A DNA stretch of 30,132 nucleotides from a virus: positions 1 to 30,132 of the IMG/VR virus record IMGVR_UViG_3300032323_000996; one strand, 5' to 3'. Every line of letters begins with the position of its first letter. The first letter of the stretch is position 1. Both the position numbers and the translations under genes were made by a program. Below, one piece after another: positions 25,483-29,660 of this stretch. Below the pieces are notes generated by a model. The model did not search any database and was not told where the DNA came from. It worked only from the letters and a program-made list of their open reading frames with translations.

Positions 25483-26283
25483 ATGAAAATTAATGAACTT
25501 ATCGCAGAGCGACAAGATATAGACGAAGGAATTGGATCTTTCTTAGGAAAAGCTGCCGGCCATGCTGTTGGAGGAATTAAAGCAGCTTGGAGAGATGCTA
25601 AACAAGGGTATAAAGATGCAAAGGCAGTATGGGATCCAAAAGATCCTCCAGGAACTTATAATAATTCTACGGCAGAACCAGCAACTACACCTGCGGCAAC
25701 TACACCTGCGGCAACTACACCTGCGGCCCAACCAACGGCGGCAACTGCACCAGCACCAGCAGCCCAACCAGCAGAACCAGCAGCCCAACCAGCAGCGCCT
25801 GCGGCAGAACCGGCACCCGCAGCGGCACCTACAGCAGCAAACGCTCCAGCTAGTGATATTGGTAACATTATGCAAACAATTGATAAGTTAGACAAAACAA
25901 CTAAGCAACAACTTGCTAGCGAGTTAGAAAAAAGTATTGCAGCAGCACCTGCTACTGCAAAACCAACGCCTGCTGGAACAACATATGATCCAGCTAAAGC
26001 AGCCGCAGATAAATTAGCAAAAGGTCAAGCAGATCAACAGCAAGCACAGCAACAAATGGCGGCTACTAAACAAGCAAATGCGGCAACTAATCAGCAAGAT
26101 GCTGCAATCAAAGCCGCAGCAGACGCTGCTAAAGCTAAACCGCCATTTCAACAGACTGCATCTGATAAAATGGCTATTAAAGCTGCTGCCGACAAAGGCA
26201 TTAGAGAAGCTAAAGAAAAGAAATTAAAGAAGAAAAAAATAGTTGCAGAATTTAAGAGCAATTTCTTAGGTAGACATATTTAA
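25483..26283 (+). CDS. Ala/Pro-rich protein with T4 internal-protein-like N-terminus
   Basis: This 266-residue protein starts MKINELIAERQDIDEGIGSF. T4 internal head proteins start with MKTYQEFIAEA, a capsid targeting sequence removed by gp21; here MKxxELIAE and the I-D-E-G cleavage-like site look similar. After an amphipathic stretch (KAAGHAVGGIKAAWRDAKQG) comes a 75-residue TTPAA/AQPAE linker, then a helical Ala/Gln/Lys region, an IREA site and a very basic tail (KEKKLKKKKIVAEF). The segment after the predicted cut resembles the one after the second site of the upstream protein (both start GI and contain K-x-A-A-G). It lies 15 bases after that gene, likely one transcript, and its stop overlaps the convergent ORF by four bases. 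Role as DNA-bound head cargo is inferred. Confidence 0.6.
   Translation: MKINELIAERQDIDEGIGSFLGKAAGHAVGGIKAAWRDAKQGYKDAKAVWDPKDPPGTYNNSTAEPATTPAATTPAATTPAAQPTAATAPAPAAQPAEPAAQPAAPAAEPAPAAAPTAANAPASDIGNIMQTIDKLDKTTKQQLASELEKSIAAAPATAKPTPAGTTYDPAKAAADKLAKGQADQQQAQQQMAATKQANAATNQQDAAIKAAADAAKAKPPFQQTASDKMAIKAAADKGIREAKEKKLKKKKIVAEFKSNFLGRHI
25681..25725 (+). repeat. Perfect 15-base tandem repeat, three copies
   Basis: GCAACTACACCTGCG occurs three times head to tail with no change and encodes A-T-T-P-A repeats in the Pro/Ala linker. Further AAQPA-coding copies follow at about 25760-25795. The copy number is likely variable between relatives. Confidence 0.95.
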
Positions 26284-26498
26284 AAGAACGGTAATCCAGT
26301 ATCTTTAGTTATTTTTAAGTTTTCTTCAATTAGTTGATTAACTAATAATCTATCATCCATAGTTAATAAGAATGCTTCTGATATGGTTATGCCTCCGCGC
26401 ATGTACCAACATATCTTAATAAGTTCTTCTCTCAAGGCTTTTGTATCTTTTTCATATTCTTTAACAACACGATCTATACCGTCGTTGTCAAGATACAA
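26280..26498 (-). CDS. Small tail/hub assembly chaperone-like ORF (gp51-like), probably made by frameshift from gp26
   Basis: The 72-residue reading frame contains ICWYMRGGITISEAFLLTMD and ends TKDTGLPFF, resembling the short ORF next to gp26 in many T4-like phages and the C-terminal half of split tail-assembly chaperones. It has no ATG at its head: the first start-like codon is TTG at 26498, with AAGG only three bases before it. The frame is open upstream as far as the T TTT TTC site in gp26 and is in the -1 frame, so the likely product is a gp26 fusion of about 365 residues. Independent start at TTG by coupling remains possible. It meets the plus-strand gene tail to tail with a 4-base overlap. 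Confidence 0.65.
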   Translation of the reverse strand: MYLDNDGIDRVVKEYEKDTKALREELIKICWYMRGGITISEAFLLTMDDRLLVNQLIEENLKITKDTGLPFF

Positions 26499-26503
26499 AA
26501 GCC

Positions 26504-27376
26504 TTAGACGAAAAAAGTTGCAGGATCAAATACCAATGGTACTTCAACAGTTTCACCTGTAAATCCTTTTTCACGCATCTCGTCTGTAATAGTAACTGTT
26601 ACTGGTTTAATAGTATTAATTTCTCTTAATCGATCTAGATGTTCTTGAATTTTATTAAAGATTTCTTTATCAACGTTTTCGATAAACTCAGCAATAAATT
26701 TTGGATTATCGGTACTACCTTCACTAGAATCAATTCTAATAATACTTGTCTGTACCATGCCTAGTGTAATATCGGTCAATTTGCTAAAACTTTCTTTAAA
26801 CAATCTTAATTTTTCATCTTCTTCAATTTTATCGTTGTTAACTACCTGCATAATCTTTTGAGTTTCAAAAGTTTTTAAGGCGCTTTCGCTGATCTGTTTA
26901 TAAGTCATCGGGCGCACAAACACAGTTAGATCATCACTGACCTGTACAACAGGATCCCAAGTAACAGAACTTAGTAAGGAATCCATAACAGTTCTTAGGT
27001 CAACAGTATATTCCATTTCGATATCATCACCGAATGTAATAGGAGTTGTCATTTTTTCACCGTAAGTTGCAAGTCTAATAGCAATTAAGACAACATCTAA
27101 ATCAATATTAGGCATGTGCCAAGCATTTTTAATGTTTGGCATACAGTGTTGGATAACGTCAACAACAGCTTGCCCACTCATAACAGCATCGGGTACCTTT
27201 AACATTAGTTCATCTTTTGCAGTCATTGAGTAGACAGGATACTCTCCAGTTTCTGTAGGAATAATGGCTCCTGCAGGCCAGTATTCGCCGTTGCTAGGCA
27301 ACCTAACATAGATCTTAGGTTGTCTCATAAATGACGCTAACGGATTAGATTGTTGCATTGGGACGCCGGTTACCAT
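26504..27376 (-). CDS. 26: Baseplate hub assembly protein gp26-like
   Basis: This 290-residue protein belongs to the T4 gp26 family, needed to build the baseplate hub. Diagnostic segments near the N-terminus are MRQPKIYVRLPSNGEYWPAG, YPVYSMTAKDELMLKVPDAV, VDVIQHCMPNIKNAW and DLDVVLIAIRLATYG, a pattern shared by gp26 and tail-assembly chaperones of other myoviruses. T4 gp26 is 208 residues; the extra length is at the C-terminus. GGAG eight bases before the ATG at 27376 supports this start over the internal Met at residue 7. The end carries a frameshift-like T6C run leading into the gp51-like frame. The tape measure gene starts 73 bases away in the other direction, fitting a chaperone role. Confidence 0.82.
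   Translation of the reverse strand: MVTGVPMQQSNPLASFMRQPKIYVRLPSNGEYWPAGAIIPTETGEYPVYSMTAKDELMLKVPDAVMSGQAVVDVIQHCMPNIKNAWHMPNIDLDVVLIAIRLATYGEKMTTPITFGDDIEMEYTVDLRTVMDSLLSSVTWDPVVQVSDDLTVFVRPMTYKQISESALKTFETQKIMQVVNNDKIEEDEKLRLFKESFSKLTDITLGMVQTSIIRIDSSEGSTDNPKFIAEFIENVDKEIFNKIQEHLDRLREINTIKPVTVTITDEMREKGFTGETVEVPLVFDPATFFV
26510..26516 (-). promoter_or_regulatory. Candidate -1 ribosomal frameshift site T TTT TTC
   Basis: On the minus strand the last gp26 codons read ACT TTT TTC GTC TAA, so T TTT TTC is in the correct X XXY YYZ phase. Slipping back one base gives TTT TTT CGT CTA AGG CTT TTG, which is open and continues into the downstream 72-codon frame. This is the arrangement of lambda G/GT-type tail chaperones. 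No stimulatory hairpin was identified. Confidence 0.6.
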
Positions 27377-27388
27377 ATTTGTATCTCC

Positions 27389-27396
27389 GATAAATA
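27389..27396 (+). promoter_or_regulatory. Late promoter-like GATAAATA for the tape measure gene
   Basis: GATAAATA (one base from TATAAATA) lies 53 bases before the tape measure ATG at 27450, in the 73-base divergent gap. A transcript would begin about 27402. It faces a second GATAAATA on the other strand. Confidence 0.55.
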
Positions 27397-27417
27397 AATG
27401 ATGCTAAATGAATACAA

Positions 27418-27425
27418 TATTTATC
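27418..27425 (-). promoter_or_regulatory. Late promoter-like GATAAATA for gp26
   Basis: The minus strand reads GATAAATA 41 bases before the gp26 ATG at 27376. With the plus-strand copy at 27389-27396 it forms a face-to-face pair whose transcripts would overlap by about 10 bases. Confidence 0.55.
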
Positions 27426-27449: not shown

Positions 27450-29660
27450 ATGGCAGACGTCACCGGATCGATAGGCAACGAATATGTAGAACTCAATAAT
27501 GCAGCTACGGAAGCTACGTTAAGACAACTGTTGGCAACTGTTCAACGTCAGGGTGGCATTGGCGCCGCTAATGCAGTGAGTTCAACTGCTAGCGCTGCTG
27601 GTGTTAACCCGGCTGCTGTTAAAGCAGCAGAAGCTTCTGCCAAAGCTCAAAAAGAACTTGCTGAAAAAGCAGATAACCTTAAAAAGACGTTCTCAGCCCT
27701 AGGTGAGGGCATGATGGATCTTACTGGTAAACTAATCCAGGGTACTGACAAAAGTAGCGATCTATTTTCGGCGTTTGAAAGATTACCGGGAGTTATTGGG
27801 TTAGTTGCCGGTGCATTTGCAAAGGTAGCAAGGTTTCAAGAAGAAAACTTAGGAGCTTATCAAAAGATTACAGATGCCGGAGTTAGCTTTGGTGGTAGCT
27901 TAACTAACATGAGAACTGCGGCGGCCAGCACCTATATGACATTAGATCAGTTTACAGGTTTAATGAAACGCAATAGTGAAACATTTGCCAAATTAGGCGG
28001 CACAGTTGATCAAGGTGCCAGGGCATTTACCGGACTTAGCAACTCTTTATTAAAAAGTGAAGCTGGTGATAATCTTCGAGCATTGGGTCTTACTTCTGAA
28101 CAAGTTAACGAAGGACTTGCTGGATATCTAGCAGTAACAGGAGGCCGCAACAAACAAGAAATGCAAAATACTGCGGCTATAACAAAAGGAGCATCAGAGT
28201 ATCTAACACAATTAGATGCGTTGGCAGCAATTACAGGTAAGAGTAGAGAAGAACAAGAAAAGCAATTAAAAGAAGCTAGTGCTAACGCAGCATATGAAGC
28301 ATATCTTCAAACGTTAGACGAAGAAGGAAAGAAAAAAGCAACACTAGCTATGCAAAATGCATTGGCTACAGGAGGTAAAGCTGGTGCAGATTTACTTAAA
28401 TCTCAACTGTTAGGTTTGCCTCCAATGACTGAAGCTGCACAAAAATTAACAGCATTAGGTCCTAACGTTGCTAACGGCATTAAACAAATGGGCGATGCAG
28501 TTAAAGATACTGGTAAGTCTATGCAAGATGTTGAAAAAGGCCGTGCTGCTGCACAAGCAGGTGCTAGTAAAGATGTAGAAAGATTAGGAAAAAGCACATT
28601 AGCAGCTATGTCATTTATGTCAGGATCTGATGCTCAGACAGCAATGGCATTGCAAAAACAAGATAATTTGAATAAACAACAAGGTATTAAAACTAGTGCA
28701 GATGCTGAAAAGCAAATGAAGGAAATTGAAGAAGAACAGAAAAAACGTAAAGAGTCTGAAGCTAAACGTGCAGTAGAAACACAAAAAGCTATACAAGAAC
28801 TTGGTCAAGCAATCTTGAGTCTCTTAATGCCTGCTATCAAACTGCTAACTTCTATAATAAATCCGTTGGCTAAATTTGTTAGTATTGCTATGGTACAGTT
28901 TCAAAAATTAGATGGAGTTATACAATCTTTAATTGTTGCTGGCTTAGCATATCTGGCATTTAAAAAGTTACAACTTGCTCGAGAAGCAGCAGGACAAATA
29001 GCAGGATCAGGTAAAGGCGGCATAGCTGACAAAGTAGGAGATCTTGGAAAAAGAGCTGCCGGAGGAGCTGGGGGAGGAGCTGGCGCTGCCGGAAGTGCAG
29101 CTGGTAAGGCTGGCGGTCTTGGCAGCAATCTAGCTAGTGGTATTAAAGCAGGCGGTCTTGGGGTTGTGGGAGGTCTTGCACTGGGTGCAGCCTCAGACTA
29201 TGCTAAAGAAAAAGGAATGGAAAAAACAGGTGCAGGACTAGATGTTGCAAGTCAAGCGGCAACTTATGCAGGCACTGGCGCAATGATAGGCAGTATTATA
29301 CCAGGGCTAGGCACAGCTATCGGTGCCGCACTGGGTGGATTAGTTGGCGGTGGAATGGGACTTTATCAAAACTGGGGCAAGCTGTTTGGCGAAGCAGGAG
29401 CAGCAGATACAAAAAAGATGTCCGATGCTCGTCCAATGGCTGATGGCGGCATTGTTAGTAAACCCACAAATGCATTAATTGGTGAAGCAGGTCCAGAAGT
29501 TGTGGCTCCGATTCAGTACTTTATTAATTTACAAACCGAGCTACAGACGTTAAATAAGCAAACTGCTGAAGTTTTACGATATATGAAAGAAACAGCAGAA
29601 TATTCGAGACGCAATAATGATTCTATTAAGAGTCTTAGCGGTGATCTTTTTAAATTTTAA
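27450..29660 (+). CDS. Tail tape measure protein
   Basis: This 736-residue protein sets tail length and is ejected with the DNA. The C-terminal motif ADGGIVSKPTNALIGEAGPE (residues about 667-686), followed by VVAPI, is the hallmark ending of phage tape measure proteins. The rest is long alpha-helix: an Ala/Lys-rich start, helical segments, a charged coiled coil (KQMKEIEEEQKKRKESEAK, about 425), hydrophobic helices (about 455-510) and a Gly/Ala-rich membrane-like region (IIPGLGTAIGAALGGLVGGG, about 610-635). T4 gp29 is 590 residues; at 0.15 nm per residue 736 residues would suit a tail near 110 nm (inference). It is next to the gp26/gp51-like chaperone genes and before the portal gene. No clear ribosome site precedes the ATG. 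Confidence 0.88.
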   Translation: MADVTGSIGNEYVELNNAATEATLRQLLATVQRQGGIGAANAVSSTASAAGVNPAAVKAAEASAKAQKELAEKADNLKKTFSALGEGMMDLTGKLIQGTDKSSDLFSAFERLPGVIGLVAGAFAKVARFQEENLGAYQKITDAGVSFGGSLTNMRTAAASTYMTLDQFTGLMKRNSETFAKLGGTVDQGARAFTGLSNSLLKSEAGDNLRALGLTSEQVNEGLAGYLAVTGGRNKQEMQNTAAITKGASEYLTQLDALAAITGKSREEQEKQLKEASANAAYEAYLQTLDEEGKKKATLAMQNALATGGKAGADLLKSQLLGLPPMTEAAQKLTALGPNVANGIKQMGDAVKDTGKSMQDVEKGRAAAQAGASKDVERLGKSTLAAMSFMSGSDAQTAMALQKQDNLNKQQGIKTSADAEKQMKEIEEEQKKRKESEAKRAVETQKAIQELGQAILSLLMPAIKLLTSIINPLAKFVSIAMVQFQKLDGVIQSLIVAGLAYLAFKKLQLAREAAGQIAGSGKGGIADKVGDLGKRAAGGAGGGAGAAGSAAGKAGGLGSNLASGIKAGGLGVVGGLALGAASDYAKEKGMEKTGAGLDVASQAATYAGTGAMIGSIIPGLGTAIGAALGGLVGGGMGLYQNWGKLFGEAGAADTKKMSDARPMADGGIVSKPTNALIGEAGPEVVAPIQYFINLQTELQTLNKQTAEVLRYMKETAEYSRRNNDSIKSLSGDLFKF

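Follow-up and report, generated by a model that had tools for sequence, protein, structure and literature searches.

Does the gp26 gene of the virus record IMGVR_UViG_3300032323_000996 encode one protein or two? In the window, i.e. the whole analyzed stretch of 30,132 nucleotides (nt; positions 1 to 30,132 of that record), this gene occupies the minus strand at 26504..27376, and the first-pass annotation had proposed that a programmed -1 frameshift joins it to a small open reading frame (ORF) behind its stop codon. Based on sequence comparisons, we consider it very probable that the locus is a tail assembly chaperone (TAC) gene of a T4-related phage, in which a predicted -1 slip on T TTT TTC would give a short and a long form. 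An invariant heptamer, a retained -1 phase, a coding -1 ORF without a conserved start codon and a suitably spaced RNA stem with covariation all speak for the proposal of programmed -1 frameshifting.

The minus strand at the end of gp26 reads ...GCA ACT TTT TTC GTC TAA GGC TTT TG..., where the 0 frame reads the heptamer (26510..26516, minus strand) with the codons TTT and TTC and the stop codon at 26506-26504. This reading agrees with the slippery phase that had been assigned to T TTT TTC, but not with its placement four codons before the stop, as GTC alone separates the heptamer from TAA. Past the slip site, the -1 frame (26280..26510, minus strand) contains no stop before TAA 26282-26280, as had been claimed; its 76 codons encode a putative TAC-C (gpT-like) domain, supported by its conservation and by the lack of a conserved start. 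The gp26 ATG is preceded by GGAG and opens a short form (TAC-N) of 290 residues, and the predicted fusion has 289+76 = 365, i.e. the two product sizes expected from the outset. The ORF of 72 codons described earlier is real, although this count covers only the stretch from the first TTG, and its conserved look is confirmed by a mean column identity of 71% and six invariant residues (R1, R3, L4, L5, W35 and R38) among 45 sequences. An Ala/Pro/Gln-rich ORF of 266 amino acids (aa) on the plus strand (25483-26283) converges on the -1 domain and overlaps its end by four bases.

Is the heptamer more than a chance run of thymines? A search of viral contigs in IMG/VR provided 80 gp26 relatives with 62-92% identity. 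A comparison of their gp26/next-ORF junctions, a check suggested by the first-pass annotation, shows that the T6C run and the -1 phase are kept: in 80/80 relatives, T TTT TTC has the position -10 relative to the stop, and no stop interrupts the -1 frame before the shared end. In 53/53 distinct sequences of the window clade the -1 ORF closes at a constant offset (+224 or +221), and hence we do not regard the heptamer as a product of chance. All 45 representatives use TTT TTC (log10 P = -37.6 under the codon usage of the gene), and the preceding codon always ends in T (log10 P = -15.9); both values assume independence and are overstated through relatedness. Codon usage does not account for the conservation of the heptamer. 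The Sinorhizobium phage Phosso and the Agrobacterium phage Atu_ph07 share the heptamer position and the end of the -1 frame; Serratia BF, Pseudomonas Paride and Klebsiella RaK2 keep the heptamer with shifted stop positions. The heptamer is thus retained in jumbo phages down to 25-33% identity. Furthermore, T TTT TTC is present in Vibrio 2.275, Salicola SCTP-2, rhizobiophage IC12, Vibrio D484, Aeromonas Ah1 and the cyanophages Sf-FS3 and Syn19, and when a gp26 of a cyanophage served as query in another search, 80/80 cyanophage-type loci contained it. Variants are T TTT TTG in the Rhizobium phage RL38J1, for which a search for relatives returned one locus, and T TTT TTT in XacN1 and CM1. In a 595-kb uncultured phage (L183), T TTT TTC is located 70 nt before the short-form stop and is followed by an open -1 frame that resembles the extra domain; this phage is possibly a distant member of the group.

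In a rival reading, T TTT TTC merely encodes a conserved Phe-Phe pair, and the small ORF is a gene of its own, translated from TTG 26498 as a non-ATG start or through reinitiation behind the gp26 stop. Indeed, most relatives have TTG as the fifth codon of the -1 frame, and in cyanophages an ATG lies 2 nt past the gp26 stop. Separate translation even exists in the superfamily: Cygsa01 (L091) and Vibrio K474 (L176) lack the heptamer, and the domain ORF overlaps their short ORF in a TAATG, which suggests two separate polypeptides. Yet in 4/53 distinct relatives ATG, GTG and TTG are all absent from codons 1-12 of the -1 frame, so that the second ORF cannot be an ordinary separate gene, and a scan for Shine-Dalgarno-like (SD-like) matches of at least 4 nt ahead of the first start candidates found none in nearly all relatives. 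Phe-Phe itself tolerates TTC as well as a varied third base in the codon before; nevertheless TTT TTC and the preceding T are invariant, and T4 gp26, which is not followed by a -1 domain, uses TTC TTT for this Phe-Phe. We therefore judge a gene of its own to be very improbable. The start at TTG 26498 was rejected, since it is not conserved. In two Ackermannviridae (L177 and L180), gp26 ends ATT TTC ATT TAA without a heptamer and a -1 domain follows; here ATT, possibly a weak start codon, occupies the place where Cygsa01 has its ATG.

What the first-pass annotation overlooked is the second half of the predicted frameshift signal, an RNA stem behind the slip site. Its 5' arm (UAAGGCUUUUGUAUC, 26492..26506, minus strand) begins 3 nt past the heptamer, with an invariant core 6 nt past it, and its 3' arm (GAUACAAAAGCCUUG, 26433..26447, minus strand) has a register common to nearly all relatives; together they form 15 base pairs (bp) around a 44-nt loop. 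The window RNA 3' of the heptamer folds with -32.2 kcal/mol (z = -7.2), and 0/200 shuffles are as good. Across 46 sequences, 91.6% of the cells are paired, and compensatory changes on both sides occur at 6/15 stem pairs, with 30 compensated cells observed vs 6.3 in shuffles and at most 7 in slid versions of the stem. The covariation score is 0.195 vs 0.099 when shuffled and at most 0.068 when slid, and an 8-bp core is intact in 52/53 distinct sequences. Phosso has the same stem at the same spacing (GGCUCUUG/CAAGAGCC), and the Atu_ph07 RNA folds as GGCUCUUUGU/ACAAAGAGCC. Within the clade, the excess of constraint on synonymous sites is concentrated at ACT TTT TTC, AGG CTT TTG and GAT ACA ... 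GCC, which correspond to the slip site and both stem arms.

Such a stem could instead act at the level of the transcript, as a terminator or processing site with no role in slippage. It is a very stable inverted repeat and belongs to no Rfam family (the Rfam search gave only chance-level matches, all below the gathering score), both of which would suit that function. However, its register is fixed in the clade at a distance of 4-6 nt from the heptamer on the downstream side; the stem is part of the coding -1 frame, where a terminator would truncate the domain; and other lineages have different structures at the same spot. A purely transcript-level role thus appears very unlikely to us, and position and conservation point to the stem, as well as to the cyanophage elements described next, as putative stimulators of slippage.

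In cyanophages, GGAGG or GAGG occurs 10 nt upstream of the heptamer in 21/22 representatives, and downstream there is a hairpin of 9 bp, which contains the cyanophage ATG and covaries less clearly (one pair); the window clade has no conserved SD-like motif upstream of its heptamer. The candidate stimulators differ by lineage: the window clade has a long covarying stem, cyanophages combine a short hairpin with an SD-like motif, Cinqassovirus Ah1 has both kinds, and neither stem nor SD-like motif is obvious in RaK2 and BF. In some lineages an overlapping start replaces the heptamer, and in T4 the short and the long form each have a gene of their own. It is conceivable, and in our opinion evenly balanced, that the T4 superfamily has kept T TTT TTC fixed and swapped the stimulator by lineage, so that changing cis-elements would preserve a long-to-short ratio under selection. 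These elements also bear on whether the long form could arise from transcriptional rather than ribosomal slippage. T runs may trigger slippage of RNA polymerase, and T6C includes one; but it is a short run, and both the covarying stem at ribosomal spacing and the SD-like motif 10 nt upstream in cyanophages fit ribosomal slippage, which leaves the polymerase very little credit as the source of the long form.

For the programmed frameshift, we propose the following course. The majority of ribosomes would stop at TAA 26504-26506 and release the 290-aa TAC-N, annotated as gp26. A minority would pause at the stem, slip back by one base on U UUU UUC and continue to a 365-aa TAC-NC, which carries an added helical domain of 76 aa. 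Slippage itself, its efficiency and the chaperone activity are what we infer here; a function as chaperone of the tape measure protein is suggested by membership in the gp26/gp51 family, by the tape-measure candidate next to the gene and by the precedent of lambda.

How does the locus relate to gp26 and gp51 of T4? The short form matches PF12322 (T4_baseplate; E=2e-9, 37.9 bits vs a curated cut-off of 24.5) and phrog_150 (E=1.3e-13), and its AlphaFold2 model (pLDDT 85) matches the fold of baseplate hub assembly proteins of the T4-like type; a fold search against the PDB gave no match. Partial fold similarity (TM about 0.5) connects it with larger uncharacterised jumbo-phage proteins of about 440-690 aa from Erwinia Special G, Ralstonia RSF1, Achromobacter Motura and Erwinia phiEaH2 (ranks 10, 16, 17 and 37). 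T4 gp26, with the C-terminus GLKEFFELL, and T4 gp51 are both strong PF12322 matches. In profile comparisons, whose reversed controls were not significant, the cyanophage fusion aligns to gp26 with E=2e-26 and stops at the junction, and to gp51 with E=8e-18 over 241 columns and through the junction. Because both are PF12322 members, gp26 ending at the slip point and gp51 extending across the extra domain, they probably represent separate-gene counterparts of the two products; the proposed tie between gp26/gp51 and the split-chaperone system is thus supported, and it was published in 2022. The cyanophage -1 ORF belongs to phrog_634, a 'baseplate hub assembly catalyst' family that matches gp51 too, and the extra domain of cyanophages matches gp51 directly (E=1e-7). 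A first alignment of window-clade fusions was not significant against gp51 or gp26; with distant jumbo phages included, the profile reaches gp26 (E=9e-5 over 57 columns) and still has no match to gp51, and the fusion of the window clade plus distant jumbo relatives aligns across the junction with that of the cyanophages (E=2e-16). The extra domain of the window is too divergent for a direct gp51 match, and calling the -1 frame gp51-like, as was done originally, accordingly depends on the chain from the window clade over the cyanophages to T4.

Next to gp26, on the plus strand at 27450..29660, is a probable tape measure protein gene of 736 aa. Its product weakly matches a tape-measure phrog (35 aa, E=2e-5), also matches a virion structural protein (E=5e-8), and is related to RaK2 ORF088, which is annotated as tape-measure-like. 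Between the two genes, at 27389-27425, divergent GATAAATA late-promoter-like motifs are found, one per direction.

Some results weigh against the frameshift interpretation. An ATG lies inside the first four -1 codons in 7/53 relatives, where some separate initiation is possible. In RaK2 and Serratia BF, which keep the heptamer, a strong local stem was not found. Taken by itself, the -1 domain does not significantly match T4 gp51, the gp51 C-terminus or any PHROG, and a fold search with it gave no match. Finally, the tape-measure candidate is weakly identified and, unlike in lambda and P2, is transcribed divergently from gp26: the neighbor named in the first-pass annotation does adjoin, but on the opposite strand.

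The T4-like tail assembly chaperones were reportedly identified by Vladimirov, Gautam and Davidson (2022, Virology 566:9-15). A 2016 review describes G-T frameshifting as conserved in long-tailed phages 'except T4' (PMC5009743). Citing the 2022 work, the PRFect paper mentions T4-like phages with one short and one long gene and no frameshifting (PMC10885494), and the Adele paper poly-T slippery sites in T4-like TAC-N genes (PMC12846349). As far as the 2022 work is represented in these citations, the conclusion on gp26/gp51 is not new; new here would be the uncultured clade and its covarying candidate stimulator, and possibly both the covarying stem and the SD-like motif of cyanophages are undescribed. 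The locus offers a clear case in which T4 relatives use predicted frameshifting, with gp26/gp51 as the separate-gene version according to that publication, and it supplies a well-defined candidate stimulator. Moreover, ORFs behind gp26 that are named 'baseplate hub assembly catalyst' or 'hypothetical protein' would often be the ends of a fused protein; in public genomes, e.g. Syn19, Atu_ph07, RaK2 and Ah1, they are annotated with a late start or omitted.

The -1 frameshift of E. coli dnaX consists of a heptamer plus a downstream stem. The locus shares this arrangement, and the cyanophage members add an SD-like motif 10 nt upstream; the protein is unrelated, and the window clade differs in having no conserved motif of this kind. 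With lambda gpG/gpGT and P2 gpE/E+E' it has in common a small C-terminal domain in the -1 frame and an adjoining tape-measure candidate, from which the gene diverges instead of preceding it; heptamer and stimulator differ, a sequence relation to either system was not detected, and no Pfam or PHROG match to a lambda-type family was found beyond the weak tail-assembly-chaperone phrog_1749 (E=0.0064). Like the T4-like TAC-N/TAC-NC of the 2022 work, as cited, it belongs to the gp26/gp51 family, with a short and a long form made by frameshifting or from separate genes depending on the group, and it would differ in its uncultured jumbo-type clade and covarying stem-loop. T4 itself has two genes on opposite strands, and its gp26 does not end with a slippery heptamer; PF12322 is common to both systems, with gp26 corresponding to the short form and gp51 to the long one.
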